A program made the translations under genes and the position numbers. Shown here in pieces: positions 36,352-58,116 of a stretch of DNA of 64,000 nucleotides; positions within the stretch are counted from its first letter, which is position 1, and each line of letters opens with the position of its first letter. The notes under the pieces are model-generated. The model did no database searches. It was not told the DNA's origin and saw nothing but the letters and a program-made list of their open reading frames with translations. Source of the DNA: Haematobia irritans (taxonomy: Eukaryota; Arthropoda; Insecta; Diptera; Muscidae); contig NC_134398.1 in NCBI RefSeq assembly GCF_050003625.1, positions 104,014,404 to 104,078,403 on the forward strand, written 5' to 3'.

Positions 36352-36371
36352 AACGGGAAAAAAAATCTACA

Positions 36372-37697
36372 ATGAAGTTTAATCAGCTTCGAGTGGAAGA
36401 CTTGAAGAAGGAATTGAGCAAAATGGAGCAGCCGACTACAGGAAACAAGGCCCAATTACAAAAGCGACTACTGGAAGAGTTCGAGCGGCGCAGTATTGAT
36501 ATCGAAACACATGAGTTCGATTATAAGGAAGATCTTGACGAATCAGTGGTAGCCAGCGCCTTGGAAACTCCATCTGTAGCTTCTAATGTTGTTGATTACA
36601 CATCGATGGTCAATATTTTGAGCAAAATGATGGAAGAAAATTCTCTAAAAATGCAAGAGAATTCTAGAAAATTGGAAGAAAAATTCGACGAAAATTCAAA
36701 AAAGATGGACGAAAATTCTAGAATTCTAAATGAGAATCTTCAACAAATTGCTGAAGGCATGGAAAAACGTGTGGACCATATCGAAAGCCAAATTGGGGAG
36801 CTGGATAAGAAGATTATTTCTGTGGATGAGAAAATTATGGTTCATGATGAGAAGTTTCTACACATTGAAAGAAAAATGTCAGAGCTGGAAATTAAAGGTG
36901 GACCAGTGCGCGTTATCGAGGGCTCGAAAACCAAACCTCCTGTTTTCGATGGCTCAACTTCATTTGATGTATTCAAATTCCAATTTGAAATGGTTGCTTC
37001 TAGAAATTTATGGAACGACAATGACAAAGCAATTGAACTTCTATTGGCATTAAAGGGCAACGCCGCTGATGTGATACAAAGCATTCCCGCTGCCTCTAGA
37101 AATAATTATAATGACGTAATAGCGGCACTTCAACGTAAGTACGGCGGAGAACATAAGCAAGACATCTTCAGAATGGAATTAAGAGGAAGAGTCCAGAAGT
37201 CAAATGAGACTCTACAAGACTTTGCAACAGAGGTTGAGCGGTTGGTGCTTTTGACATATCCAGGAGAAAGTCATCCACTTGTGGACCGCATCAAGATCGA
37301 GACCTTTGTGAATGGAATTAGAGACCCTGATATAAAATGCGCGACATATGCGTCACAAAAGGCTACATTCGCAGAAACAGTAACATTTGCACTTGCACAA
37401 GAAACTGCGAGATTGTTGGCACGACCTCAAATTCACAAGGTACGCAGAGTTGAGACCGAGCAAGATGAATCAAATTCCGTGATTGACTCAGTGAAAGAAG
37501 CAGTTAAGCAGGCAATGCAAGAAATGAAGCAGGAGACAACTAAATCCAGAATAAAGTGCTATAACTGTGATAAGCCTGGACATGTTGCTCGTGAATGTAA
37601 AGCACGTCGTAAGCGATCAAGATCGAAATCGCCTTCACCGCCAAACAATAGCCATATGTGGGTGAACCCACAGTCCAGTGATTCACATTTAAACTAA
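36372..37697 (+). CDS. gag: Gypsy-1 copy 1 Gag (SAP - coiled coil - capsid - zinc knuckle)
   Basis: The 441-residue structural protein starts at the first ATG after the primer site. Residues ~1-40 match a SAP fold (LRVEDLKKEL, then GNKAQLQKRLLEE), a DNA-binding module not usual at the start of Gag. Residues ~75-180 are a long coiled coil of MDENSRILNENL-type repeats. The capsid-like region starts at PPVFDGSTSFDVFKFQF (~195). A CCHC knuckle CYNCDKPGHVARECKARRKR lies at ~398-417, followed by an RS-rich tail. It differs from copy 2 by Ser for Arg in KKELSKMEQ. The last codons form a frameshift site into pol. Confidence 0.93.
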   Translation: MKFNQLRVEDLKKELSKMEQPTTGNKAQLQKRLLEEFERRSIDIETHEFDYKEDLDESVVASALETPSVASNVVDYTSMVNILSKMMEENSLKMQENSRKLEEKFDENSKKMDENSRILNENLQQIAEGMEKRVDHIESQIGELDKKIISVDEKIMVHDEKFLHIERKMSELEIKGGPVRVIEGSKTKPPVFDGSTSFDVFKFQFEMVASRNLWNDNDKAIELLLALKGNAADVIQSIPAASRNNYNDVIAALQRKYGGEHKQDIFRMELRGRVQKSNETLQDFATEVERLVLLTYPGESHPLVDRIKIETFVNGIRDPDIKCATYASQKATFAETVTFALAQETARLLARPQIHKVRRVETEQDESNSVIDSVKEAVKQAMQEMKQETTKSRIKCYNCDKPGHVARECKARRKRSRSKSPSPPNNSHMWVNPQSSDSHLN

Positions 37698-40600
37698 ATC
37701 GAGCTAGTTCAGCGGGGCAAGAGCTGGCTCCCACATGTGATGGCCCCACAATCTCTATAGCAATAGTTCAACAGAAAAATAACAATTTGACTATTGCGGG
37801 TGGTATTAATGGATACAAGCGAACTTTGACGTTGGATACTGGTGCATCGAAATCTATTATTAGATCCGATTTAGTAAGAGGAAAAGTTACACCACTAATT
37901 GGAGTCACACGGCTACAGGTGAACCCGCAACTGTATATGGAAAGGTTCCTGTAAAGTTAACCATTGCAAACAAATCCGTTAATTATGAATTCATTGTGGC
38001 CGATATAGTGGACGAAGTTATAATTGGAGCGGATTTTATGATTGCTTTTGGTCTCAACTTGGATTTGAAGCGTCGTGTAATGACCTGGTGCGATATCGAA
38101 ATACCGGTAAACGTGGGCTACAGTGAGAATACGCCTGTCAGATATTTGACAATGAGCCAGCCAGAGTCAATACCACCAAATGCCGAAACAATTATATGGG
38201 TTTCTATGAATGGAGATTGTGAAGTCGGCAAATTGTGGGTTGTTGAACCAGCAGAAAATAAAAACAACAACATCTTGATAGCAAATGCCCTGGTAACAAC
38301 AAATGAAGAGGGACTTATTCCAGTTCGAGTTTTGAATTTATCTGACCATCAAGAGCAAATTGGAAAATTTTCGGACATTGGCAAATGTACTCCTGCCGAA
38401 GCAATAGTCAACTTGGAAAGCAAATCTCCAAAGAAGCATAATGAAGTGATGAAACATCTGGAAGGTTATGTCGAAACTTGGACACGTCATCTATCACCGT
38501 CCGAGAAAAATAAAGCCAAGAAATTGTTATGGAAAAATGCCTCCGCCTTTGCCATTGAGAAGAAAAATCAAGGGAGAACATCTGTGGTGAAGCATGAAAT
38601 AAATACCACAGAAGAAAGACCCATAAAACAGGCACCACGAAGTGTCCCTCTAGCAAAACGAGATGAGGTTCAAAAGCTCGTTAAGGAAATGGCGGAAAGT
38701 GGTGTGATTGAACCATCATCAAGTCCTTGGTGCTCGCCAGTTGTGCTGGTCAAAAAGAAAGATGGAAGTACCCGATTTTGCGTGGACTACAGAAAATTGA
38801 ATGATGTTACCAAAAAGGACAGTTATCCGCTTCCACGCATTGATGACACGTTGGACACACTAGCCGGAACAACATGGTTTTCCACGCTTGATTTGCAGAG
38901 TGGATATTGGCAAGTAGAGATCGCCGAGAAAGACAAAGAAAAGACAGCTTTTGGCGTTAATGGCGGTCTTTGGCAATTCAATGTAATGCCATTCGGGCTC
39001 TGCAATGCTCCGGCTACGTTCGAGCGATTGATGGAGCGGGTGCTAAAGGGGTTGCATTGGAAGTCCTGCTTGATATACCTCGACGATATCATAGTGATGG
39101 GCAAAACATTTGACGAGCACCTTAAGAACTTGAAAGACGTTATCCAGCAATTGTCAGCCGCTGGCTTACGACTTAACGCCAAGAAGTGCTCGCTTTTCCA
39201 GCGAGAAGTTAAGTACCTGGGTCATCATGTTACAGCAGAGGGCATATCCACCGATGAAGACAAAATTCAAGCAGTAAAAGATTGGCCACGTCCACGGAAT
39301 CTCCACGAGTTGCGCAGCTTCCTTGGTTTATGCACATACTACAGGCGTTTCGTACCAAACTTCGCCAGCATCGCCGCAAGCCTCCATAAATTAACGCAAA
39401 AAGGTACGAAGTTCCAGTGGAGTGAAGAACAGGAACAGTCATTTCATCATCTAAAAGAACTTTTATGTTCAACTCCTGTTCTGGCGTATCCAATTCCTGG
39501 CGAAAAATTTGTTTTGGATACAGATGCCAGTGCGTACGGAATTGGTGGTGTACTATCTCAACAGATTGAAGGTAAAGAAAAGGTCATCGGATATTTTAGC
39601 CGAACGTTATCCAAGCCCGAGAAGAACTATTGCGTAACAAGAAGAGAGCTGCTTGCTGTCATAGAAAGCGTGAAGCATTATCACAAATACTTGTATGGAC
39701 AGAATTTCCTGCTAAGAACTGACCATTCAGCTCTACGATGGTTGCTTCAATTCAAGAATCCGGAAGCTCAGCTGGCACGTTGGATAGAAAGACTCCAAAG
39801 CTATGATTTCAGCATCGAACATAGAAAAGGTGGCAAACACGGCAACGCGGACGCCTTGTCACGTCGACCTTGTAATGTCGAGTGCAAACACTGCTCGAAA
39901 GCTGAACATAAGGAAGAAATCGTGGATATCAGGCTGTTGCACGTCGAACCTGGAGTGGACTGGCCAGCAGAACAGCGTAAAGATCTCATTTTGAGCAAAA
40001 TTATTTCGGCGAAAGAAGAAGATAAGAAACCCAGTAAGAAAGACATCGCAGCCGAAAGCCCACTTATGAAATCATACTGGGCTCAATGGGACAGTCTATG
40101 TCTGGTCAACGGAACCCTACAACGTAAGTGGGAAAGTGAAGATGGCAAGAATAGCCGCAACTTGATAATCGTGCCAGATTCCAAGGTAAAGGATGTTTTG
40201 ACGGAATTCCACAATGGACCTAGTGGAGGTCACTTAGGAATAACCAAAACAGCCGAGAAAGTGAAGCAACGATTCTACTGGGTTGGATGCCAGAAATCAA
40301 TTGCTGAATGGGTGGCAAATTGTGAGAAGTGCATAAAGGCGAAAGGGCCAAGACGAAAAAGTAGAGGTCCTATGCAAGAGTATAGGCCAGGAGCGCCTTT
40401 TGAAAGAATAGCAATGGACGTTGCAGGGCCTTTCCCAGTAAGTGATTCTGGAAATCGATATGTCCTTGTGGTCATGGACTACTTCAGCAAGTGGCCAGAA
40501 GTTTATGCCATTCCTAACCAAGAGGCGAAGACGATTGTAGATGTAGTCGACAAGAACTGGATATGTCGCTACGGTGTGCCGACCGAGATACACTCAGACC

Positions 40601-41271
40601 AAGGAAGAAATTTTGAATCGGCCATATTCAAAGAGATGTGTGACTCCCTTGGTATCAAGAAAACAAGGACCACGCCATTGCATCCGCAGTCTGATGGCAT
40701 GGTAGAAAGGTTTAATCGCACTCTGGAAGAACATCTTCGAAAGGTGGTGGATAACGGCCAACGAGACTGGGACGATCATATACCAAAGTTTTTGCTGTCG
40801 TATAGATCAGCCATACATGATTCTACGTCACGAACACCGGCCAAGGTCCTATTCGGAACGGAATTGAAGTTGCCCGGAGATTTGATATTTGGCGCTACAC
40901 CCAATGAGCTCGCCATGGAAGAAACCAGTAACGACATACCAAACACATTTGGTAAAGTTCACGAATCAGTGCGAAACAAAATAAAAATGGTTAGCAACAG
41001 AATGAAGGCGAGATATGATCGTGCAGCAAACACTGAGGGCTTTAGTGAAGGACAACTGGTTCTGCTATTCAACCCGCAACGAAAGAAAGGATTATGTCCT
41101 AAACTACAAACACAGTGGGAAGGCCCATATAAAGTCATCAAGAAGATCAATGATGTTGTATACCGCATTCAAAAAGACGACAGCCCAAGGTCAAAGATGA
41201 AAGTCGTTCACCTGGAACGTTTGGCTCCATACGGAACGGGTTCTGTGCCTATTCGGGACGAACAGGCTTAA
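37682..41271 (+). pseudogene. pol: Gypsy-1 copy 1 Pol, protease frame broken by 7-bp deletion
   Basis: It matches copy 2 except that about 7 bp are missing near 37905, inside the protease after the LDTGAS active site. Translation after the frameshift therefore ends early. From 37996 a 1091-residue frame holds RT, RNase H and integrase intact: YLDDIIVM, FVLDTDASAYG, LRTDHSALRWL, the HHCC zinc region, AMDVAGPF, IHSDQGRNF, GMVERFNRT. Substitutions relative to copy 2 include Arg for Gln in PLAKRDEVQ and His for Gln in LGHHVTAEG. Confidence 0.93.
37688..37747 (+). promoter_or_regulatory. Gypsy-1 copy 1 -1 frameshift signal (slippery site + pseudoknot)
   Basis: T_TTA_AAC lies directly before the gag TAA (37695-37697). 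After 6 bases, GAGCTAGTTC (37701-37710) pairs with GAGCTGGCTC (37721-37730). The loop GGGGC (37714-37718) can pair with GCCCC (37743-37747). Confidence 0.8.
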
Positions 41272-41897: not shown

Positions 41898-41917
41898 AAC
41901 GGGAAAAAAAATCTACA

Positions 41918-43243
41918 ATGAAGTTTAATCAGCTTCGAGTGGAAGACTTGAAGAAGGAATTGAGGAAAATGGAGCAGCCGACTACAGGAAACAAGGCCCA
42001 ATTACAAAAGCGACTACTGGAAGAGTTCGAGCGGCGCAGTATTGATATCGAAACACATGAGTTCGATTATAAGGAAGATCTTGACGAATCAGTGGTAGCC
42101 AGCGCCTTGGAAACTCCATCTGTAGCTTCTAATGTTGTTGATTACACATCGATGGTCAATATTTTGAGCAAAATGATGGAAGAAAATTCTCTAAAAATGC
42201 AAGAGAATTCTAGAAAATTGGAAGAAAAATTCGACGAAAATTCAAAAAAGATGGACGAAAATTCTAGAATTCTAAATGAGAATCTTCAACAAATTGCTGA
42301 AGGCATGGAAAAACGTGTGGACCATATCGAAAGCCAAATTGGGGAGCTGGATAAGAAGATTATTTCTGTGGATGAGAAAATTATGGTTCATGATGAGAAG
42401 TTTCTACACATTGAAAGAAAAATGTCAGAGCTGGAAATTAAAGGTGGACCAGTGCGCGTTATCGAGGGCTCGAAAACCAAACCTCCTGTTTTCGATGGCT
42501 CAACTTCATTTGATGTATTCAAATTCCAATTTGAAATGGTTGCTTCTAGAAATTTATGGAACGACAATGACAAAGCAATTGAACTTCTATTGGCATTAAA
42601 GGGCAACGCCGCTGATGTGATACAAAGCATTCCCGCTGCCTCTAGAAATAATTATAATGACGTAATAGCGGCACTTCAACGTAAGTACGGCGGAGAACAT
42701 AAGCAAGACATCTTCAGAATGGAATTAAGAGGAAGAGTCCAGAAGTCAAATGAGACTCTACAAGACTTTGCAACAGAGGTTGAGCGGTTGGTGCTTTTGA
42801 CATATCCAGGAGAAAGTCATCCACTTGTGGACCGCATCAAGATCGAGACCTTTGTGAATGGAATTAGAGACCCTGATATAAAATGCGCGACATATGCGTC
42901 ACAAAAGGCTACATTCGCAGAAACAGTAACATTTGCACTTGCACAAGAAACTGCGAGATTGTTGGCACGACCTCAAATTCACAAGGTACGCAGAGTTGAG
43001 ACCGAGCAAGATGAATCAAATTCCGTGATTGACTCAGTGAAAGAAGCAGTTAAGCAGGCAATGCAAGAAATGAAGCAGGAGACAACTAAATCCAGAATAA
43101 AGTGCTATAACTGTGATAAGCCTGGACATGTTGCTCGTGAATGTAAAGCACGTCGTAAGCGATCAAGATCGAAATCGCCTTCACCGCCAAACAATAGCCA
43201 TATGTGGGTGAACCCACAGTCCAGTGATTCACATTTAAACTAA
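41918..43243 (+). CDS. gag: Gypsy-1 copy 2 Gag (SAP - coiled coil - capsid - zinc knuckle)
   Basis: The 441-residue protein is identical to copy 1 except KKELRKMEQ near residue 17. It has an N-terminal SAP-like module, a coiled coil, a capsid-like region, a CCHC knuckle and an RS-rich basic end. Gag packages element RNA in cytoplasmic particles. The frame is uninterrupted and ends T_TTA_AAC_TAA, which is the slippery site for entry into pol. It is transcribed from the central LTR. Confidence 0.95.
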   Translation: MKFNQLRVEDLKKELRKMEQPTTGNKAQLQKRLLEEFERRSIDIETHEFDYKEDLDESVVASALETPSVASNVVDYTSMVNILSKMMEENSLKMQENSRKLEEKFDENSKKMDENSRILNENLQQIAEGMEKRVDHIESQIGELDKKIISVDEKIMVHDEKFLHIERKMSELEIKGGPVRVIEGSKTKPPVFDGSTSFDVFKFQFEMVASRNLWNDNDKAIELLLALKGNAADVIQSIPAASRNNYNDVIAALQRKYGGEHKQDIFRMELRGRVQKSNETLQDFATEVERLVLLTYPGESHPLVDRIKIETFVNGIRDPDIKCATYASQKATFAETVTFALAQETARLLARPQIHKVRRVETEQDESNSVIDSVKEAVKQAMQEMKQETTKSRIKCYNCDKPGHVARECKARRKRSRSKSPSPPNNSHMWVNPQSSDSHLN

Positions 43244-46200
43244 ATCGAGCTAGTTCAGCGGGGCAAGAGCTGGCTCCCACATGTGATGGCCCCACAATCT
43301 CTATAGCAATAGTTCAACAGAAAAATAACAATTTGACTATTGCGGGTGGTATTAATGGATACAAGCGAACTTTGACGTTGGATACTGGTGCATCGAAATC
43401 TATTATTAGATCCGATTTAGTAAGAGGAAAAGTTACACCACTAATTGGAGTCAAACTACGCACGGCTACAGGTGAACCCGCAACTGTATATGGAAAGGTT
43501 CCTGTAAAGTTAACCATTGCAAACAAATCCGTTAATTATGAATTCATTGTGGCCGATATAGTGGACGAAGTTATAATTGGAGCGGATTTTATGATTGCTT
43601 TTGGTCTCAACTTGGATTTGAAGCGTCGTGTAATGACCTGGTGCGATATCGAAATACCGGTAAACGTGGGCTACAGTGAGAATACGCCTGTCAGATATTT
43701 GACAATGAGCCAGCCAGAGTCAATACCACCAAATGCCGAAACAATTATATGGGTTTCTATGAATGGAGATTGTGAAGTCGGCAAATTGTGGGTTGTTGAA
43801 CCAGCAGAAAATAAAAACAACAACATCTTGATAGCAAATGCCCTGGTAACAACAAATGAAGAGGGACTTATTCCAGTTCGAGTTTTGAATTTATCAGACC
43901 ATCAAGAGCAAATTGGAAAATTTTCGGACATTGGCAAATGTACTCCTGCCGAAGCAATAGTCAACTTGGAAAGCAAATCTCCAAAGAAGCATAATGAAGT
44001 GATGAAACATCTGGAAGGTTATGTCGAAACTTGGACACGTCATCTATCACCGTCCGAGAAAAATAAAGCCAAGAAATTGTTATGGAAAAATGCCTCCGCC
44101 TTTGCCATTGAGAAGAAAAATCAAGGGAGAACATCTGTGGTGAAGCATGAAATAAATACCACAGAAGAAAGACCCATAAAACAGGCACCACGAAGTGTCC
44201 CTCTAGCAAAACAAGATGAGGTTCAAAAGCTCGTTAAGGAAATGGCGGAAAGTGGTGTGATTGAACCATCATCAAGTCCTTGGTGCTCGCCAGTTGTGCT
44301 GGTCAAAAAGAAAGATGGAAGTACCCGATTTTGCGTGGACTACAGAAAATTGAATGATGTTACCAAAAAGGACAGTTATCCGCTTCCACGCATTGATGAC
44401 ACGTTGGACACACTAGCCGGAACAACATGGTTTTCCACGCTTGATTTGCAGAGTGGATATTGGCAAGTAGAGATCGCCGAGAAAGACAAAGAAAAGACAG
44501 CTTTTGGCGTTAATGGCGGTCTTTGGCAATTCAATGTAATGCCATTCGGGCTCTGCAATGCTCCGGCTACGTTCGAGCGATTGATGGAGCGGGTGCTAAA
44601 GGGGTTGCATTGGAAGTCCTGCTTGATATACCTCGACGATATCATAGTGATGGGCAAAACATTTGACGAGCACCTTAAGAACTTGAAAGACGTTATCCAG
44701 CAATTGTCAGCCGCTGGCTTACGACTTAACGCCAAGAAGTGCTCGCTTTTCCAGCGAGAAGTTAAGTACCTGGGTCATCAAGTTACAGCAGAGGGCATAT
44801 CCACCGATGAAGACAAAATTCAAGCAGTAAAAGATTGGCCACGTCCACGGAATCTCCACGAGTTGCGCAGCTTCCTTGGTTTATGCACATACTACAGGCG
44901 TTTCGTACCAAACTTCGCCAGCATCGCCGCAAGCCTCCATAAATTAACGCAAAAAGGTACGAAGTTCCAGTGGAGTGAAGAACAGGAACAGTCATTTCAT
45001 CATCTAAAAGAACTTTTATGTTCAACTCCTGTTCTGGCGTATCCAATTCCTGGCGAAAAATTTGTTTTGGATACAGATGCCAGTGCGTACGGAATTGGTG
45101 GTGTACTATCTCAACAGATTGAAGGTAAAGAAAAGGTCATCGGATATTTTAGCCGAACGTTATCCAAGCCCGAGAAGAACTATTGCGTAACAAGAAGAGA
45201 GCTGCTTGCTGTCATAGAAAGCGTGAAGCATTATCACAAATACTTGTATGGACAGAATTTCCTGCTAAGAACTGACCATTCAGCTCTACGATGGTTGCTT
45301 CAATTCAAGAATCCGGAAGCTCAGCTGGCACGTTGGATAGAAAGGCTCCAAAGCTATGATTTCAGCATCGAACATAGAAAAGGTGGCAAACACGGCAACG
45401 CGGACGCCTTGTCACGTCGACCTTGTAATGTCGAGTGCAAACACTGCTCGAAAGCTGAACATAAGGAAGAAATCGTGGATATCAGGCTGTTGCACGTCGA
45501 ACCTGGAGTGGACTGGCCAGCAGAACAGCGTAAAGATCTCATTTTGAGCAAAATTATTTCGGCGAAAGAAGAAGATAAGAAACCCAGTAAGAAAGACATC
45601 GCAGCCGAAAGCCCACTTATGAAATCATACTGGGCTCAATGGGACAGTCTATGTCTGGTCAACGGAACCCTACAACGTAAGTGGGAAAGTGAAGATGGCA
45701 AGAATAGCCGCAACTTGATAATCGTGCCAGATTCCAAGGTAAAGGATGTTTTGACGGAATTCCACAATGGACCTAGTGGAGGTCACTTAGGAATAACCAA
45801 AACAGCCGAGAAAGTGAAGCAACGATTCTACTGGGTTGGATGCCAGAAATCAATTGCTGAATGGGTGGCAAATTGTGAGAAGTGCATAAAGGCGAAAGGG
45901 CCAAGACGAAAAAGTAGAGGTCCTATGCAAGAGTATAGGCCAGGAGCGCCTTTTGAAAGAATAGCAATGGACGTTGCAGGGCCTTTCCCAGTAAGTGATT
46001 CTGGAAATCGATATGTCCTTGTGGTCATGGACTACTTCAGCAAGTGGCCAGAAGTTTATGCCATTCCTAACCAAGAGGCGAAGACGATTGTAGATGTAGT
46101 CGACAAGAACTGGATATGTCGCTACGGTGTGCCGACCGAGATACACTCAGACCAAGGAAGAAATTTTGAATCGGCCATATTCAAAGAGATGTGTGACTCC

Positions 46201-46824
46201 CTTGGTATCAAGAAAACAAGGACCACGCCATTGCATCCGCAGTCTGATGGCATGGTAGAAAGGTTTAATCGCACTCTGGAAGAACATCTTCGAAAGGTGG
46301 TGGATAACGGCCAACGAGACTGGGACGATCATATACCAAAGTTTTTGCTGTCGTATAGATCAGCCATACATGATTCTACGTCACGAACACCGGCCAAGGT
46401 CCTATTCGGAACGGAATTGAAGTTGCCCGGAGATTTGATATTTGGCGCTACACCCAATGAGCTCGCCATGGAAGAAACCAGTAACGACATACCAAACACA
46501 TTTGGTAAAGTTCACGAATCAGTGCGAAACAAAATAAAAATGGTTAGCAACAGAATGAAGGCGAGATATGATCGTGCAGCAAACACTGAGGGCTTTAGTG
46601 AAGGACAACTGGTTCTGCTATTCAACCCGCAACGAAAGAAAGGATTATGTCCTAAACTACAAACACAGTGGGAAGGCCCATATAAAGTCATCAAGAAGAT
46701 CAATGATGTTGTATACCGCATTCAAAAAGACGACAGCCCAAGGTCAAAGATGAAAGTCGTTCACCTGGAACGTTTGGCTCCATACGGAACGGGTTCTGTG
46801 CCTATTCGGGACGAACAGGCTTAA
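43228..46824 (+). CDS. pol: Gypsy-1 copy 2 Pol (protease - RT - RNase H - integrase)
   Basis: The frame is open from 43228, overlaps the end of gag in the -1 frame and has no convincing start codon, so it is probably made as a Gag-Pol fusion. Numbering from 43333, the protease active site is LDTGAS (D17). RT has FCVDYRKLND and YLDD (433-436). RNase H has FVLDTDAS, RRELLAV and RTDHSALRWL. Integrase has an H-H-C-C zinc module (GGHLGITK... CEKCIKAK). Its D880, D940, E976 triad keeps the D-x35-E spacing. A GPY/F-like end is QWEGPYKVIKK. There is no chromodomain or env. All catalytic residues are present. Confidence 0.95.
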   Translation, partial: FTFKLNRASSAGQELAPTCDGPTISIAIVQQKNNNLTIAGGINGYKRTLTLDTGASKSIIRSDLVRGKVTPLIGVKLRTATGEPATVYGKVPVKLTIANKSVNYEFIVADIVDEVIIGADFMIAFGLNLDLKRRVMTWCDIEIPVNVGYSENTPVRYLTMSQPESIPPNAETIIWVSMNGDCEVGKLWVVEPAENKNNNILIANALVTTNEEGLIPVRVLNLSDHQEQIGKFSDIGKCTPAEAIVNLESKSPKKHNEVMKHLEGYVETWTRHLSPSEKNKAKKLLWKNASAFAIEKKNQGRTSVVKHEINTTEERPIKQAPRSVPLAKQDEVQKLVKEMAESGVIEPSSSPWCSPVVLVKKKDGSTRFCVDYRKLNDVTKKDSYPLPRIDDTLDTLAGTTWFSTLDLQSGYWQVEIAEKDKEKTAFGVNGGLWQFNVMPFGLCNAPATFERLMERVLKGLHWKSCLIYLDDIIVMGKTFDEHLKNLKDVIQQLSAAGLRLNAKKCSLFQREVKYLGHQVTAEGISTDEDKIQAVKDWPRPRNLHELRSFLGLCTYYRRFVPNFASIAASLHKLTQKGTKFQWSEEQEQSFHHLKELLCSTPVLAYPIPGEKFVLDTDASAYGIGGVLSQQIEGKEKVIGYFSRTLSKPEKNYCVTRRELLAVIESVKHYHKYLYGQNFLLRTDHSALRWLLQFKNPEAQLARWIERLQSYDFSIEHRKGGKHGNADALSRRPCNVECKHCSKAEHKEEIVDIRLLHVEPGVDWPAEQRKDLILSKIISAKEEDKKPSKKDIAAESPLMKSYWAQWDSLCLVNGTLQRKWESEDGKNSRNLIIVPDSKVKDVLTEFHNGPSGGHLGITKTAEKVKQRFYWVGCQKSIAEWVANCEKCIKAKGPRRKSRGPMQEYRPGAPFERIAMDVAGPFPVSDSGNRYVLVVMDYFSKWPEVYAIPNQEAKTIVDVVDKNWICRYGVPTEIHSDQGRNFESAIFKEMCDSLGIKKTRTTPLHPQSDGMVERFNRTLEEHLRKVVDNGQRDWDDHIPKFLLSYRSAIHDSTSRTPAKVLFGTELKLPGDLIFGATPNELAMEETSNDIPNTFGKVHESVRNKIKMVSNRMKARYDRAANTEGFSEGQLVLLFNPQRKKGLCPKLQTQWEGPYKVIKKINDVVYRIQKDDSPRSKMKVVHLERLAPYGTGSVPIRDEQA
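43234..43293 (+). promoter_or_regulatory. Gypsy-1 copy 2 -1 frameshift signal (slippery site + pseudoknot)
   Basis: The heptamer T_TTA_AAC (43234-43240) abuts the gag stop. After a 6-base spacer, a 10-bp stem (43247-43256 with 43267-43276) encloses GGGGC (43260-43264). That loop sequence can pair with GCCCC (43289-43293), forming an H-type pseudoknot with loops of 3, 2 and 12 bases. Slipping back one base enters the open pol frame. Confidence 0.82.
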
Positions 46825-50667: not shown

Positions 50668-51420
50668 TTGATAATCTTTAATAGAGTTATTATTGGATGG
50701 TTTGAATAAAATTCGTTGATACGGTCTATCATGGGGGTGTACAAGAATCTGTCTGAATATCCCCACAGAAAACATACTGATATTTCTGCCAATTAATAAT
50801 AACAGAAGTGAGGTCCGATTGTAATGTGGGACCGCTGCGTAATACGTCGTTAAGAGAATAGCTTGATTTCGTCTTTCGGGACGCATTAAAAACGACTCGA
50901 ACCTTTGTGGACTTATGTTCCGTTCGTAGAACCGCGTGATGTGTGAAGTAAAATGAATTAAATTTATCATCAAAAGAAATTTCGCGAGAAGTTTATTCTG
51001 CGTAATCAAGCGCTATATATTCGTTCAGAACATAATGGTTCTGTGTTCTTAGTTCAGAATCTTTGGATAGATTTCGTTCCATACGATTGTACTGAGCCAA
51101 AGCCATACATCTAGAAGGACCCAAGTACAATGAATCAGAAAATTCAAAAAAGTCGTACCATGTAACGACCATTGGGTAATCGAGTTGTAGTCTTTCTGTA
51201 ATATTCTTCACAGAACGCATCAGCAGCTGAGACGAGATGGGATGTAGGAGCTTTTTCTTGTTCCCAAAATTTTCTTAGCATTTCGTTCATAGAAGATTCT
51301 TCGAATTCATGAACATTTACGGAGAATGAATGTATCGTTTACGTCCGCATTGGACCACTGAGAATCCAGCCAAATATCGTATTATATAACAAAACGTATT
51401 AACAAAACGTTCGGAATCAT
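50668..51420 (-). pseudogene. BEL-1 reverse transcriptase N-terminal part
   Basis: The minus strand reads, across frameshifts, MLRKFWEQEKAPTS, CEEYYRKTTTR, SDSLYLGPSRCMALAQYNR, NEYIALDYAE, STKVRVVFNAS, SLNDVLRSGPTLQ and YRQILVHPHDRPYQRILF. This is the usual order of BEL/Pao RT. Frame changes are near 51150, 51000 and 50735. Upstream gag and protease are not recognised beyond 51420, so the element is 5'-truncated or diverged there. Confidence 0.85.
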
Positions 51421-51435
51421 TACCAAGGAATCATT

Positions 51436-51637
51436 ACCACCCAAAACCTAAAAAATTGCAATTTTTATATGAAAAATTTCTTTTGACCATATCTCCTTAT
51501 ATATGCGTCCTAGAGCGAAAATGACTTTAATTTGTGAACACCCCCAAAAAAAATTAAAAATCTACTCAAAACCTAGAAAACTCTACATTTTTAAATGAAA
51601 AACTTATTTTGCCCATATCTCCTAACCTAAGCGTCCT
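51436..51637. repeat. Two ~72-bp direct repeats
   Basis: cctaaaaaattgcaattttt...gcgtcct (51436-51512) recurs as cctagaaaactctacatttt...gcgtcct (51574-51637). No gene. Confidence 0.6.
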
Positions 51638-51648
51638 GGGTTTATTTT

Positions 51649-51788
51649 GAGTTTTGCTGCAAGTAGAGGATGCTGATGAGGAATGTGGTAATTCCGAAAC
51701 GTGCGTCCATCCAACCATCTTGCAGTCTATAGGGCTTTGTCCAAATAAATTTGACAAATATTCTTTTCCTCTGTTGGTTAAGCTACTC
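51649..51788 (+). repeat. Penelope-type (inferred) terminal repeat, unit 1
   Basis: A ~140-bp unit from agttttgctgcaagtag to ctgttggttaa contains hammerhead 1. It is repeated directly at 52075-52210. Tandem hammerhead-bearing terminal repeats are a known trait of Penelope-like elements. No GIY-YIG or RT ORF is present, so the family is inferred. Confidence 0.6.
51657..51725 (+). ncRNA. Type I hammerhead ribozyme, complete core
   Basis: The core CUGAUGA (51673-51679) and GAAA (51696-51699) are intact. Stem II is GGAAU/AUUCC (51680-51684 with 51691-51695). Stem III is a 3-bp minimal helix (A-C-G with C-G-U, 51699-51701 with 51704-51706) closed by two bases. The cleavage base is C51707. Stem I is GGAUG/CAUCC (51668-51672 with 51708-51712), an internal loop, then CUGCAAG/CUUGCAG (51657-51663 with 51719-51725). 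All listed pairs are Watson-Crick. It likely self-cleaves element RNA. Confidence 0.88.
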
Positions 51789-52074
51789 TTGTAGTTTAGT
51801 CAACACAATGGTTTTAAAGCTGAGATGAAAACAACAAATATGATTGAAGTACAAACCTACAATAAAAAACAAAACACGCATGAAGTAAGAGGAAGCACGC
51901 TCAAAATTAACCCAGCCAACTGCACTCAAATCGATGACTTGATGGTGGCAAAGGAAAAGAGAAATGTTTGTATGAATTTATTTCGGCATAAGCCGGCTAT
52001 CATAAACCGGAAGGTTCAAGTGTGGTTCACCATGGGTTTAGTGAACTGCCTGAATTTATTCTGATAATTGGTTG
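51789..52074 (+). other. Spacer between hammerhead repeats
   Basis: It has one 79-codon open frame (51825-52064) without recognisable domains. It may be the remnant of the element body. Confidence 0.4.
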
Positions 52075-52210
52075 ATAGTTTTGCTGCAAGTAGAGGATGC
52101 TGATAAGGAATGTGGTAATTCCGAAACGTGCGTCCATCCAACCATCTTACAGTCTATAGGGCTTTGCCCAAATAAATTTGACAAACATTCTTTTCCTCCG
52201 TTGGTTAACC
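52075..52210 (+). repeat. Penelope-type (inferred) terminal repeat, unit 2
   Basis: It is a direct copy of 51649-51788 with a few substitutions and contains hammerhead 2. Confidence 0.6.
52084..52152 (+). ncRNA. Hammerhead ribozyme copy, core-mutated
   Basis: It has the same fold as 51657-51725, but the core reads CUGAUAA. The G-to-A change at 52105 replaces the invariant G8. A second change (cttacag) unpairs one base of outer stem I. It is probably inactive. Confidence 0.8.
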
Positions 52211-52391
52211 CTTTCGGTTATTCTATGCCATATGGCATAGTCGCTTTTCAGTGACCATTTTAAGTTTATAGAGTTATGGTTTTTATCATTTCTGTATTTT
52301 TGTATTATTTTTTATGTGTTTCCTTCAAATTATTGCAAAAAAATTTAGTTAGAAGACCAAGTATATTGTGAAGTTTCAGAAAGCGTAGGTT

Positions 52392-52739
52392 AGGTTAGGT
52401 TAGGTTATGTGGCAGCCCGATGTATCAGGCTCACTTAGACTATTCAGTCCATTGTGATACCACAGTGGTGAACTTCTCTCTCATCACTGAGTGCTGCCCG
52501 ATTCCATGTTAAGCTCAATGACAAGGGACCTCCTTTTTAAAGCCGAGTCCGAACGGCGTTCCACATTCCAGTGAAACCACTTAGAGAAGCTTTGAAACCC
52601 TCAGAAATGTCACCAGCATTACTGAGGTGGGATAATCCACCGCTGAAAAATTTCTTGGTGTTCGGTCGTAGCAGGAATCGAACCCACGACCTTGTGTATG
52701 CAAGGCGGGCATGCTAACCATTGCACCACGGTGGCTCCC
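52392..52739 (-). mobile_element. tRNA-derived SINE with LINE-B-like 3' tail
   Basis: A 16-bp TSD (tcagaaagcgtaggtt, 52376-52391 and 52740-52755) flanks it. On the minus strand it begins with a tRNA-like head, has a ~180-bp body and ends in a ~75-bp tail (gtggtatcacaatggactga...cgggctgccac) with (CCTAA)n. The tail matches the 3' end of LINE-B (58179-58252). No ORF. Confidence 0.9.
52660..52736 (-). other. tRNA-like head of the SINE
   Basis: A-box-like TGGTGCAATGGTTAGCATG and B-box GGGTTCGATTCC are at tRNA spacing; the anticodon loop cttgcat is alanine-like (TGC). It resembles module 1 of the CAC family. Confidence 0.7.
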
Positions 52740-52755
52740 TCAGAAAGCGTAGGTT

Positions 52756-53254
52756 TCACATTTTAGCAAAAACAGATCATTTCGTTCTTTTATATATTTT
52801 ATTACAAAAATTACCTTTTTTGATAACTTTATTTAAGTTGTTTAGTAGATAATCATTCCTTCGATTAGTGTAAAAAAAACTGGATTCCTAAAGTAGTTCA
52901 ATAAGGCTGTACGATTTTTTTTAGTTGCTACTATGCCATACGGCATAGATCGCGTATTGAGGAAATTTAAATCACACACAAGGCTATGCTCTCTCATTCA
53001 TTCATCAACGAAACAGTGACGATTGAACACGTAATAAGATGTCTAAACTATAACTGGAAGTTAAAAAAACAGGATCTGTTTTTAATATTTTATAAGCTGA
53101 AAATTTCGAATGTGCAAATAGTTACTGGATGCCGTTCGAGTACTTTTCAGCAATTTTAAGCAAATAGAGTAAAATACAGTCCTATGCGCTTTACAGACTA
53201 TCAGTCATTCCGGACGGAATGTCCGTGTTTGTAAAGAATCTTATACGGTGTTCT
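52756..53254. other. No gene recognised
   Basis: AT-rich sequence. ctatgccatacggcatag (52930-52947) echoes ctatgccatatggcatag (52223-52240). It ends in the left TSD of LINE-B (53244-53254). Confidence 0.4.
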
Positions 53255-53365: not shown

Positions 53366-54575
53366 ATGCAGAGAAATTCAAAGACATCCACTGGGTTGCT
53401 AACTTCAGGGCGCAGTGGACGGGTATCGACTGGAGTTATAAATTTGGGCAATGACCAAGAGTTAGGCCCAATTAGTCGACCTGTAGACGGGTCGACAGGT
53501 AGCGACAATTTGACAAGTCGAACCTTTTCCAAGGTAACGGCATCAAAAGGAGGTAATCCCTCACGAAAGAGATTCAAGGAACGCAGAAATGCTTTGTTTA
53601 TCCTAAAGAAATTAGGATCAGTCGACCCAAGCACGTTGTCGGCTAAACAAAGCGATTCCTTAAAATGGGCTCAAGGAATTCTTGAGGCTGGAAAAAGGGA
53701 ACGATCACCGGATGAGCTGCCATCCTCCAAAAGGGATCAACGATCGTTTGCCTCAGTTGCTAAAGACAGCCTTGTGATGGCTATCATAAATAAAGGAGCA
53801 TTGGACGGTATGGTTCCAAAGCAAAAATGGGGGGAAATTGAGAATGCTTTGTCTGGCGTCTACTCGCAGGTGCTGGAAAAGTTTCCCGGCCCAGATCCTC
53901 GACACCAAGAGGCTGGTTGGTATCAAGGACGATTTAAACTAGTCGCATTTGAGGACCAGAGGTCCTGCTCTGATACTAATTGGTGAAGTTTGGGAAGGAG
54001 CTGCTCTAGAGTTAGTCGAGAAGAAAGACATACCGGCTAGACCAAGAGCACATGCGTGGATACCTGCAAACCCTCCTGACCCTGAATCTATTTTAAATAG
54101 ACTGAAACAATGCAATCCAGATCTTCCAACAGCTGATTGGAAGGTTGGCCGTTTGGATGAAGTGGATGGGCCAAGACGGCATGCAGTGTTTATATTGAAC
54201 ACTCAGTCTTTGCCACATCTAGCAAAGTCTCAGGGCCGTGTATGTTATGGCTTTCTTTATATCCAAATGAAGGTGTATAAAAACGATCAGCTAAAGGATT
54301 CAGAAATGGACAAGCCTCAGTCTGAATCAGAAGTAAGCGGATCCTCTTGCGAAGTCGAGGGAGATACCAAAGTTGAAGACATGGATAGATACCGTATGCG
54401 TGAGGAGGCTTCTACTGCCTCAGAACTCACCAAAGTTGAACCTATGGTTATTGCGAGAGTCACCGATATCTCTGAAGAGGACATTCTTGATGACTCGATT
54501 GAAGCGGCTGATGTGACGGTTGTTGAAAATCTCGATGGTCCTACGGATCCTCCAGATAAATCTTCATCATTGTAA
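53366..54575 (+). pseudogene. LINE-B ORF1 (Gag-like), frameshifted
   Basis: The start is the ATG at 53366 in the context ccaccATG. The first part (to 53986) is basic and Gly/Ser-rich, then helical, with WYQGRFKLVAFEDQRS. The second part (53949-54575, another frame) continues with GEVWEGAALELVEKKDIPAR, ARPRAHAWIPANPPDPE, CNPDLPTADWKV and an acidic Ser/Glu-rich end. The break lies around 53960-53990. I see no CCHC knuckle. ORF1 proteins of this class bind element RNA. It overlaps ORF2 by 41 bases. Confidence 0.8.
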
Positions 54576-57234
54576 GGCTGCATGTGCTGCCTTAAAAGTT
54601 CTCCTGATGAAAGGGGACATAGACATAGTTCTTATTCAAGAACCATATGTTTATAGAAACAAAATATGTGTATTAAGTACTCCGGGGTTCAAACTATTGC
54701 AGTATACTGGTAATGATGTAATTCGAGCCTGTATAATTGCTAAAAACGAGCTTAACTTGTTTCTGCTTCCTTCAATGTGCAATGCAGACACTGTCGTTGC
54801 CAGTTTAGAAATAGCCAAATGCAAATATTGGGTATCTTCGGTCTATATGGGACATGACAGGGAGATGCCTCCATGTGCCGTTAAGACCTTAGTTGAGGAG
54901 TCACTGAAAACAAAGACGAAACTCATTATGGGATGCGATGCGAATGCGCATCATAGTATATGGGGAAGTAGTGATACTAATGCAAGGGGAGAGTCGCTAA
55001 TAGACTTTATTTTGCGTACTAATCTGGTAGTGTGCAACAAGGGAGATGCCCCAACCTTTGTCACTAAAAACAGGCAAGAGGTTTTGGACATCACCTTGGC
55101 CTCGCAAGAACTGAATGAAATGATATCTGAGTGGCATGTTTTAAGTGAACACAGCTTCTCAGATCATCGCTACATCAGTTTCAAATTTGATGTTCATAAA
55201 ACCAAGACCATATTTCCGCCAAATGTTAGGAAAGCTGACTGGAATAGGTATAGGGAATCCTTCAATATGATGATACCGGAGACAAATATGAGCACTGTAC
55301 AAGTTATCGAACACGCAGTGGAGAGGATTTCTAAGGCCTTCAACATTTCACTGAAAGCTGCATGCCCTAAAGGGAAGCCAAGGGGGAAAAATCGACCACC
55401 ATGGTGGTCTACGGAGTTAGGTAATATGCGGAAATCGTGCAGGAAGCTCTTTAACAAAGCAAAGTCCACCAGAGCTCCTGTGGATTGGGACGCTTACAAG
55501 AAGAATCTGAGAGGATACAAGCGAGAACTGAGAAAGGCTCAGCATAACTCTTGGAATGATTACTGCAGCAGCATTGAGAATACGTCCGAGGCTTCCAGAC
55601 TACGGAAGGTTCTAGCATGCACCAACTCCGCTCCAGGTTTCATTAAAACATCGGAGGGCAATTGGACAACGTCCAGTGAGGAGACGCTGGAGGTACTATT
55701 GGACACACATTTTCCAGGAAATCAGACGGTTGAACCATGTAATGGCGGTGCCACAGTGGCTCAGCGGTCGTTTCCTATCGAGGAAATTGTATCAGAATCT
55801 AGAATAAAATGGGCGTTAAATAGCTTTGGATCATTCAAATCCCCCGGACCTGATGGAATTACTCCGGCGGAGTTAAAAGCGGTGGCTGACAGAATTATCC
55901 CCTGGTTGTCGGCGATATATGTAGGATGTATCAACTTAGCATATATTCCACGAAAGTGGAGAGAATCAAAAGTCGTTTTCATACCTAAAGCGGGAAAAGC
56001 CTCTCACTCGAATGCGAAGGATTTCCGACCAATCAGCTTATCATCATTCCTACTTAAGACTCTGGAGAGGATGATAGATATTTATCTTAGAACTAGCGTC
56101 GATTCAAGTTTGCTCTCGAAACGACAACATGCATACTCGAAAGGCAGGTCTACTGAGACCGCATTACATGAACTAGTCAGCTTTATTGAAAGCTCACTAT
56201 CTGTCAAAGAATACACAATCGTGGCATATCTAGACATCGAAGGAGCGTTCAATAACGTCCATCCGAGCTCGATATTAAATGGACTGACAACTCTGAATGT
56301 TGATCCAGGTATACTTAGGCTGTTAGACGAACTTCTAAGGAAGAGACGCATTTCAGCCACACTAGGACAAGCAAACATACAAAGGTATGTGAACAGAGGC
56401 ACTCCTCAAGGAGGAGTTCTATCACCTCTTCTTTGGAATGTTGCTATAAACGACCTTCTGGTTTCCCTAGAAAAAGAAAGGATACAAGTGGTGGCATACG
56501 CAGATGATGTGGCGCTAGCAGTCAGGGGAAAATTCCCATCAACAGTTAGAGATATTATACAGAGAGCCCTCCGGATGACTGAGAAATGGGCGAAAGATAA
56601 TGGTCTTGGGGTAAATCCTGCAAAGACAGAACTAGTCATGTACTGCAAAGATCGCAAAACTCCCACGGTTAGGCCCATATCCTTAGGGGGTATTGAAATT
56701 CCCTTTAGGGAGTGTGCAAAATACCTTGGCGTTATTTTGGACAGGAAGCTGAACTTTAAGCTTAATATTGAAGAAAGGGCGAGGAAAGCAACGGTAGCTT
56801 TATACTCGTGCAAAAAGGCAATAGGGAAAAAATGGGGACTAAAACCAAAAATTGTACATTGGCTATACACGGCAGTGGTTAGACCTATAATGCTATATGG
56901 TGTTGTAGTCTGGTGGCCGGCACTTCAGAAACCGACTGGTTTAGATAAAGTTCAGCGTATGGCGTGTTTGTGTATCTCAGGTGCATTCAGCAAGACAGGA
57001 ACAAACTCCCTTAATGTCATACTGCATCTATTGCCTTTAGACATTTTGGCCAAACAGTCAGCTGCAACAACGGCTGTGCGGTTGCGCGAGCTATCGCTGT
57101 GGTCGGAAAAACGTTGCGGTCACAGTTCGGTCCTCAAAATAATGCCAGATGTGCCTAACGTAGTGGATTACACTTTGGCGAGCCCACTTTTCGACAAAAA
57201 GTTTGAGACTCTAATTCCCAACAGTGAAGCGTAG
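54535..57234 (+). CDS. LINE-B ORF2: APE endonuclease and reverse transcriptase
   Basis: The first ATG is at 54535; the frame is open from 54520. The endonuclease spans roughly residues 5-220 (LQINLHHCKAA, IVLIQEPYVY, MGCDANAHHSIWGS, SDHRYISF). A linker has RPPWWSTELGNMRKSCRKLF. RT spans ~440-740 with VVFIPKAGK, DFRPISLSSFLLK, AYSKGRSTE, VAYLDIEGAFNNV, RGTPQGGVLSPLLWN and AYADDVALAV (YADD at 56497-56508). The endonuclease nicks target DNA and RT copies the RNA there. A TAG at 57232-57234 cuts the frame; the same frame continues with RNase H. Confidence 0.92.
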   Translation: MVLRILQINLHHCKAACAALKVLLMKGDIDIVLIQEPYVYRNKICVLSTPGFKLLQYTGNDVIRACIIAKNELNLFLLPSMCNADTVVASLEIAKCKYWVSSVYMGHDREMPPCAVKTLVEESLKTKTKLIMGCDANAHHSIWGSSDTNARGESLIDFILRTNLVVCNKGDAPTFVTKNRQEVLDITLASQELNEMISEWHVLSEHSFSDHRYISFKFDVHKTKTIFPPNVRKADWNRYRESFNMMIPETNMSTVQVIEHAVERISKAFNISLKAACPKGKPRGKNRPPWWSTELGNMRKSCRKLFNKAKSTRAPVDWDAYKKNLRGYKRELRKAQHNSWNDYCSSIENTSEASRLRKVLACTNSAPGFIKTSEGNWTTSSEETLEVLLDTHFPGNQTVEPCNGGATVAQRSFPIEEIVSESRIKWALNSFGSFKSPGPDGITPAELKAVADRIIPWLSAIYVGCINLAYIPRKWRESKVVFIPKAGKASHSNAKDFRPISLSSFLLKTLERMIDIYLRTSVDSSLLSKRQHAYSKGRSTETALHELVSFIESSLSVKEYTIVAYLDIEGAFNNVHPSSILNGLTTLNVDPGILRLLDELLRKRRISATLGQANIQRYVNRGTPQGGVLSPLLWNVAINDLLVSLEKERIQVVAYADDVALAVRGKFPSTVRDIIQRALRMTEKWAKDNGLGVNPAKTELVMYCKDRKTPTVRPISLGGIEIPFRECAKYLGVILDRKLNFKLNIEERARKATVALYSCKKAIGKKWGLKPKIVHWLYTAVVRPIMLYGVVVWWPALQKPTGLDKVQRMACLCISGAFSKTGTNSLNVILHLLPLDILAKQSAATTAVRLRELSLWSEKRCGHSSVLKIMPDVPNVVDYTLASPLFDKKFETLIPNSEA

Positions 57235-58116
57235 TGTACACGGACCCCGGGGAATAAAAGATATATAGATTTCTACACTGATGGCTCAAAATTGGATGGC
57301 CAAGTGGGTTTCGGAGTATATTCTAAAGATCTGGAACTTCGAATAGCGAAAAGATTACCTGATCACTGTAGTGTTTTTCAGGCTGAAATATTAGCAATAA
57401 GAGAAGTGGTGAATTGGCTGAGAAGTAATGCTCCAAGCAATATTGGCATTAATATATACTCAGACAGTCAACCTGCAATAAAATCCTTGGACTCTGTGTT
57501 CCTCAACTCGAAAACGGCCATCGACTGCCGCAAATCTCTCAATGAGGTGGCTGAGCAGCACAATATTCACCTAGTATGGGTGCCTGGCCACAGGAACATA
57601 CCGGGGAACTGCGAAGCAGATGAGCTAGCAAGGCTAGGAACTACCTTACATATTCCAGGGGAACTAGAATCTGTTGGTGTGCCTCTGGCTACCTGCAAGC
57701 TCTTACTGCGTGAGAAGGCTGTCATGATGGCAAATGTTCGATGGGAGAATTGTAAGGGTTGTAACGACACCAAGCAAATATGGCCCCATTTCAACTTAAA
57801 CCGCACACTAGATATGCTAGTGTTCTCGAGACGCCAGATATCACTCCTGATATCTGCTATAACGGGTCGCTGCCTGATAGGCGATTTTGCAAAAACTATT
57901 GGTGCGAAGTATAATGACTATTGTATGAGCTGTCATGATGCGGAGGAAAAGGAATCAATAAAACACCTCTTGTGTGAGTGTTCTGCATTTTGTGTAAGGC
58001 GTAAGCAAATTTTAGGGGCATATAGCTTCAGATTACTAGCGGACCTGGAAAACGTTAACTTAAGCAGTCTGCTAATGTTTTTGGAACAATCTGGTTGGTT
58101 CAACAGAAGAAAATAA
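57235..58116 (+). pseudogene. LINE-B ORF2 continuation: RNase H
   Basis: It is in the same frame as ORF2 after one TAG codon. RNase H motifs are DFYTDGSKLD (Asp at 57280), VFQAEILAIREVV (Glu at 57385), IYSDSQPAIKSL (Asp at 57463) and VPGHRNIPGNCEADELAR (Asp at 57619). A C-terminal Cys/His cluster follows (CMSCHDAEEKESIKHLLCEC). All RNase H catalytic residues are present. Without readthrough of the stop it is not made. Confidence 0.88.

Follow-up and report, generated by a model that had tools for sequence, protein, structure and literature searches.

Animal non-LTR retrozymes, in the descriptive passages of Cervera and de la Pena 2020 (PMC7229834), are small AT-rich tandem repeats that carry one type I hammerhead ribozyme per unit, occur in many copies from dimers upward, share their genomes with Penelope-like elements (PLEs), and give RNAs of about 170-400 nt. 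The element analyzed here, located in a 64-kb stretch of DNA from Haematobia irritans, the horn fly, a muscid (the window), is alike in all these respects, with a slightly longer monomer of 427 nt. Retrozyme-like repeats in insects are already mentioned in the same passages, so this kind of element is known as such. The newt and axolotl hammerhead repeats described there (units of 330-350 bp) share with our element a weak, near-palindromic stem III that favors dimers, and stem III of the element can form two pairs and a tetraloop as does HHR_Amex2, a likeness we draw from the description given in PMC7229834. Dipteran hammerheads, including those of the house fly, are of type III in the cited part of PMC7936874, whereas those reported here are of type I.

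PLEs and Terminons have been named as the likely movers of animal retrozymes, based on shared hammerheads and co-occurrence (PMC7761336, in the part that treats this point). For a PLE of Anolis, the relevant passages of PMC11167929 report two neighboring internal start positions for reverse transcription, which lie within an AC-rich stem-loop and match the optional tail, together with AT-rich cleavage sites on the target, insertion that is unaffected by hammerhead mutants, and a ribozyme that cuts only with the protein present. The optional tail of rotifer Penelope measures 31 bp, and inverted copies of Penelope are mostly head-to-head (PMC3846280, from its account of these copies). Compared to PLEs as portrayed in these two sources, the element is alike in its pair of neighboring internal 3' starts (or optional 30-40-nt tail), and likewise in an AC-rich start, an AT-rich target, inverted partial copies and a pseudo-LTR hammerhead. 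It differs from them in having neither a reverse transcriptase (RT)/endonuclease ORF nor DNA similarity to 16 local PLE loci, and its hammerhead passes a descriptor that local PLE 5' regions fail.

Titles and abstract openings of the open-licence papers listed by our searches contained no Haematobia retrozyme and no two-site 3' ends of retrozymes, and a term search within the text of PMC12910113 found no mention of ribozymes. Below we document 3' ends at two fixed sites and a hairpin of PLE type; we found no description of either in the passages of PMC7229834 on which we draw. Within the literature searched, sequence evidence for the partner of a retrozyme seems to be new.

Two hammerhead-shaped units in a direct repeat

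We scanned both strands of the window with a type I hammerhead descriptor (CUGANNA core, stem II of at least 3 bp, GAAA, stem III of at least 3 bp, stem I of at least 3 bp) and obtained exactly two matches, with C3 at 51673 and 52100 and with stems I/II/III of 5/5/3 bp in both. Among 100 first-order Markov windows, the strict CUGANGA core produced an average of 0.03 matches per window, none as strong. A repeat search returned two direct repeat copies of 132 nt each, 96% identical at a spacing of 427 (Table 1). Scan and repeat search together bear out an earlier note made from the sequence, which had proposed two hammerhead-shaped units in direct repeat, 427 apart. The whole conserved core that the note ascribed to unit 1 is found in the descriptor scan (G8 at 51678; C17 at 51707, with cleavage predicted after C51707), as are the two differences it had seen in unit 2: the counterpart of G8, at 52105, is A, and position 52149 has changed from G to A, a change present in one of 53 units and costing one outer stem I pair. 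Unit 1 thus has the features of the type I class (core, three stems, open ends in stem I), and unit 2 has them without G8.

Table 1. Features of the retrozyme copy in the window. Monomer numbering (m) starts at m1 = 51708, the first base past the predicted cleavage site.
Feature	Coordinates	Strand	Description
Retrozyme copy	51650..52208	+	559 bp = 1.3 monomers; m370, through one full unit, to m74
Direct repeat copy 1	51650..51781	+	From repeat search
Direct repeat copy 2	52077..52208	+	From repeat search
Hammerhead unit 1	51657..51725	+	Core CTGATGA, GAAA, short stem III; outer stem I CTGCAAG/CTTGCAG; inner stem I GGATG/CATCC; stem II GGAAT/ATTCC
Hammerhead unit 2	52084..52152	+	G8A at 52105; outer stem I pair broken at 52149
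Hairpin A	51773..51804	+	GTTGGTTAAGCTAC / GTAGTTTAGTCAAC, just upstream of the 3'-end sites; predicted fold
3'-end site 1	51834..51849 (m127-m142)	+	AC-rich; putative reverse-transcription start; 27/50 + 9/20 ends
3'-end site 2	51874..51889 (m167-m182)	+	AC-rich; second putative start; 14/50 + 9/20 ends
Hairpin B	51889..51902	+	GAG-GAAGCACG-CTC; counterpart of CGG-NRRGCACG-CCG before local PLE ATG
TTAA/C junction	52205..52209	+	3' end of the window copy lost; parallel in L030

The 3-bp stem III that had been drawn for these units did not hold up, as its 2-nt loop is forbidden by the energy model. Realistically, stem III would be formed by A15.1-U16.1 and a C-G pair closing a GUGC tetraloop, or else by pairing with a second copy. 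The sequence ACGUGCGU is nearly self-complementary, so that two copies of it can form eight pairs, worth -8.8 kcal/mol when the duplex is taken by itself; a shared stem III was absent from the minimum free energy (MFE) co-fold of the two units. Folded individually, unit 1 (z -3.4) retains stem II and the outer part of stem I, with the inner helix shifted, while unit 2 (z -1.3) does no better than many shuffles. As the active form appears neither in these folds nor in the co-fold, the active fold has competitors. Compensatory change within the family is nearly nil, with a single unit (L016) in which ACAGCTGT replaces ACGTGCGT and stem III is preserved.

The check by covariance model that the earlier note had called for was negative, with no hammerhead match in Rfam. 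At the gathering score nothing matched in the whole 64-kb window, none of the matches at E<=10 in 51400-52400 was a hammerhead, and the Hammerhead_3 model had no match over the whole 1.17-Gb assembly; as a control, this model matched nowhere. The Rfam result is evidence against a hammerhead, yet we do not consider it decisive, since a hammerhead is favored by the descriptor and by conservation among the copies.

Several other repeats surround the copy. Directly upstream, at 51439-51637, lie two copies of an AT-rich repeat of ~125 bp that are 81% alike. A SINE-like insert at 52376-52755 has a tRNA-like end when read by eye and an exact 16-bp flanking direct repeat (TCAGAAAGCGTAGGTT); ARAGORN reported no tRNA in this stretch. 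The palindromic motif CTATGCCATATGGCATAG occurs at 52222-52244 and at 52927-52949, about 700 bases apart. Also by eye, two very similar neighboring retroelement copies (36354-41271 and 41900-46824) contain gag- and pol-like open frames of 447 aa and 1135/1198 aa, and a LINE-type ORF of 905 aa is followed by a 293-aa RNase H-like frame at 54517-58116.

A multicopy family with retrozyme features

A 581-base query against the genome gave 57 matches from 40 scored candidates, on five large contigs, at 79-100% identity (88-100% for the 40 leading matches); the 4580 first-look candidates of this search are not a copy count. With a 124-base probe (m10-m133) we obtained 45 matches from 40 scored, 24 of which have an identical score at 98% identity, a pattern that suggests recent spread of the retrozyme. 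A tandem piece of the ~427-nt monomer was present in each of the first 30 loci mapped.

Among 85 full hammerhead units from 60 loci, 66 have a whole core (all eleven core positions checked are right, position 17 carries an allowed base and the core is free of gaps), and 19 do not. The G8A change is private to the window copy (1 of the 85 units), so the loss of G8 is uninformative on the family. In 20 full-length dimers, the mean pairwise difference amounted to 5.2% and 6.0% for the ribozymes and to 11.7% and 9.1% for the interior halves. The rest of the direct repeat differs by 7.2% and 6.0% in the same dimers, and the ribozyme therefore hardly stands out from its own repeat.

With 38%, the GC content of the element lies below the 45-50% set for retrozymes, and its 427-nt tandem monomer falls within the repeat definition of this class (150-450 bp, type I hammerhead, dimers upward). 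The family is also non-coding with many dispersed copies, as judged from four frames of one copy and the genome matches: Pfam returned nothing above cut-off in these frames (one chance-level match, E 0.097), in agreement with the earlier note that the element contains no RT/GIY-YIG ORF. An ORF with telomerase-like RT and GIY-YIG, by which a PLE is recognized, is lacking, and at 559 bp the element is too short for one. In the testable sequence-level features, the element agrees with animal non-LTR retrozymes, and it does not have the coding capacity that marks a PLE. The window copy is one copy of a young, multicopy, gene-less retrozyme family. Of the former reading as a Penelope relic or a ribozyme-only derivative, the latter half stands in substance (multicopy, no Pfam match in four frames), while the relic finds no blastn match in the 16 PLE loci; the link to Penelope survives as a shared insertion signature rather than as descent by decay.

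Most copies end at two 3' sites

We mapped 50 terminal 3' ends in 40 loci, selected for two units and with anchors short of the anchor end left out, and found 27 at m127-142, 14 at m167-182 and 9 elsewhere. A second sample comprised 20 of the 45 places from the probe search, in which upstream length was not rewarded and copies had to reach m133 (the probe end); here, 9 ends lie at m133-136, 9 at m169-181, one at m162 and one at m159. Pooling both samples places 59 of 70 3' ends in two AC-rich sites ~38 nt apart. The binomial estimate is 2e-34 for the first sample (41 of 50) and 1e-21 for the second (19 of 20, in m133-136 and m162-181), for windows drawn post hoc after the data had been seen; as sites and targets are both A-rich, the mapping of ends may overrun by several bases. 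The stretch between the two sites corresponds to the optional "tail" of PLEs.

One of the nine off-site ends (L030) has a nested insertion of ~520 bp at TTAA, after which the element resumes. The window copy ends in the same style (TTAA/CCC), which probably reflects an insertion at TTAA; its far half beyond the junction was not found in the 64-kb window. The insert itself, a ~520-bp sequence within the retrozyme copy (L030:2111-2638), lies between two TTAA, starts with CCCTTTC and is piggyBac-like.

The 5' ends are variable. In the second sample, 19 of 20 copies cross the cleavage site and 19 of 20 are shorter than one unit, with one longer than a full unit. None of the 20 has its 5' end at m1, where in vivo cleavage would leave its trace, the nearest being m7. 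The reads across the cleavage site mean that the template was uncut or re-ligated, and, with no start at m1, these 20 inserts show nothing that points to cleaved linear RNA as the template. Recurrent 5' ends are m346 (3 of 20) and m301 (2 of 20, and 5 of 30 loci of the first mapping), which flank a predicted hairpin that may halt the polymerase.

A head-to-head inverted partial copy adjoins the element in 9 of 30 loci. Within 60 nt, half of the 3' flanks (25 of 50; 24 of 41 at the two sites) contain the AT-rich repeat TTTCTATAGA/TCTATAGAAA, which occurs in 0.19% of 20000 random 60-mers of the window. Since the target is often itself a repeat, target-site duplications, which in animal non-LTR retrozymes exceed 4 bp where they occur, are hard to call. 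The PLE-type features that the element displays are thus two-site 3' ends, an AT-rich target and inverted partial copies.

A hairpin with a counterpart in local PLEs

A protein search of the genome, with a composite of PLE RT motifs as query, scored 150 RT matches out of 797 candidates, the best at E 6e-32. Open frames of 840-900 aa hold many of these matches, and inverted or tandem pairs are frequent among them. RVT_1 matched both local PLE ORFs scanned; YVDD is present in all four ORFs checked and a GIY-YIG-like motif in three of the four, and a local PLE protein shows 51% identity to a Drosophila virilis protein. As a PLE marker, PF01541 (GIY-YIG) proved uninformative, being missed by the D. 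virilis relative and by two local PLE ORFs as well; its only match in the genome lies in a frame that, from the letters read by eye, we take to be SLX1, adjoining MED31.

The pseudo-LTR of the local PLEs runs from a hammerhead-like motif through a hairpin and an AC-rich stretch to CGG-NRRGCACG-CCG, ~30 nt before the ATG, and its hairpin ends in GGTCAAC in several families. The strict CGG-NRRGCACG-CCG hairpin is found in 11 of 22 PLE 5' regions and a near match in two more (L054, L057); the remaining nine have no start region (truncated, part of a neighbor, or wrongly delimited). Neither strict nor relaxed hammerhead descriptors matched in the 16 PLE loci or the 22 5' regions. Reading the 5' regions L053-L069 by eye, we noted a kept GAAATAT(T/C)G. 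In 8 of its 10 contexts a hammerhead-like core stands in front of this motif, and an additional base often precedes stem II; the exceptions are L056 and the other L054 context, seemingly in an ORF. The AUAU of this motif could self-pair in a dimer.

On a scale whose zero is the base directly preceding hairpin B, 9 of the 30 listed PLE 3' ends lie at -45 to -34, 16 at -17 to 0 and 5 elsewhere, in a list that includes overlapping loci (L045-L047 with L058; L051 with L052) and weak second-reference matches (L057, L081); ends at 0 are probably mapping overruns. On the same scale, the 3'-end sites of the retrozyme lie at -54 to -39 and -14 to +1. Many PLE copies also sit in the same AT-rich TTTCTATAGA repeat as the retrozyme copies.

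Compared to the PLE hairpin, hairpin B of the retrozyme has kept the loop and changed two of three stem pairs, on both sides. Its pattern matches once when both strands of the window are searched; among 20000 Markov shuffles of the monomer, 15 contain it, a post hoc and flattering figure, as the pattern was chosen by eye after comparing the sequences. Independent of this choice, the 40-base block 51890-51929 has a diversity of 4.8%, against 13.8% and 8.8% in its neighbors, and hairpin B is unchanged in 38 of 48 copies. In blastn (E<=1e-3), the element had no match in the 16 PLE loci of the same genome, which sample some of the PLE families. Hairpin B may well serve as a signal for the PLE protein.

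Mobilization in trans as the favored explanation

Since the retrozyme ends share two sites, the type of target and inverted copies with PLEs, we infer mobilization in trans by the PLE protein; the window copy very likely belongs to an animal non-LTR retrozyme family that is moved by the genome's own PLEs. Tandem or dimeric copies would first be transcribed, and type I hammerheads would cut the RNA to ~427-nt units, either alone or as dimers via the near-palindromic stem III. In a dimer formed by the transcript of the window copy, the intact core of unit 1 would join the cleavage site of unit 2, and the G8A core would fail on the unit 1 site. A tRNA ligase could then join the ends into a circle, by analogy to the account in PMC7229834, where coral, mussel and axolotl retrozymes are the examples for a ribozyme that makes unit-length, circularized RNA, as the present one may do. 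Going by the shared module, the PLE protein would recognize hairpin A, the AC-rich sites and hairpin B, nick AT-rich DNA and start reverse transcription at either of two sites ~38 nt apart; the two-site ends are observed, and the start is read from them. Copying would proceed back through the ribozyme, mostly halting within one unit and sometimes going beyond, and in part of the cases result in a head-to-head inverted partial copy, both outcomes being seen in the copies.

It is possible, though we consider it doubtful, that PLEs mobilize the element from linear read-through RNA and that circles have no part. Nineteen of 20 inserts cross the cleavage site and one exceeds a unit, and unprocessed RNA is the dominant substrate in the Anolis PLE (PMC11167929, in its account of that system). 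However, a circle would likewise give reads through the cleavage site, and the ribozyme seems to matter, with 66 of 85 cores intact and less diversity than in the interior.

We regard it as quite unlikely that the element is a Penelope relic, that is, an internally deleted PLE retaining two pseudo-LTRs. The order of parts is indeed that of a PLE pseudo-LTR (hammerhead-like motif, hairpin, AC-rich stretch, hairpin B), but blastn (E<=1e-3) links the element to none of the 16 PLE loci, which represent some of the PLE families, Pfam has no match above cut-off in four frames, and the ~427-nt unit in 30 of 30 mapped loci, together with 24 copies at one 98% score, indicates that the element spreads as such. 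Very unlikely is a SINE-like element moved by a LINE rather than a PLE. Truncation at the 5' end is typical of LINE-driven copies, too, and a LINE-type ORF, read by eye, is present in the window; against this stand two 3' ends 38 nt apart, the head-to-head inverted partial copies, and a site geometry, hairpin B and target repeat common to the element and the PLEs. A satellite-type tandem repeat that spreads at the DNA level, its ribozyme without a role, would fit the monomers in tandem and the first animal hammerheads, described in satellite DNA (as recounted in PMC7229834), but is extremely improbable for copies that are dispersed over five large contigs and of which 19 of 20 in the second sample are below one unit, with the fixed 3' and variable 5' ends of reverse transcription.

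Returning to mobilization in trans by PLEs, we are inclined to think, with some reserve, that animal retrozymes are RNA parasites of PLEs that carry a stand-in for the recognition module of the PLE protein. This stand-in would be a hairpin whose GCACG loop is kept and whose stem is changed in pairs (CGG/CCG to GAG/CTC); two AC-rich start sites would precede it by about 10 and 45-50 nt, and nothing else in the sequences would be recognizably shared. If this is true, it would provide direct sequence evidence for the suspected partnership of retrozymes and PLEs and define a minimal substrate of PLE reverse transcription. As to which machinery moves animal retrozymes, 70 mapped ends, a shared hairpin and a shared target in one genome point to PLEs. 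These data give a testable minimal RNA substrate, and since this genome holds both uninterrupted PLE frames of ~850 aa and retrozyme copies with near identity over the probe, the partnership could be reconstituted in vitro.
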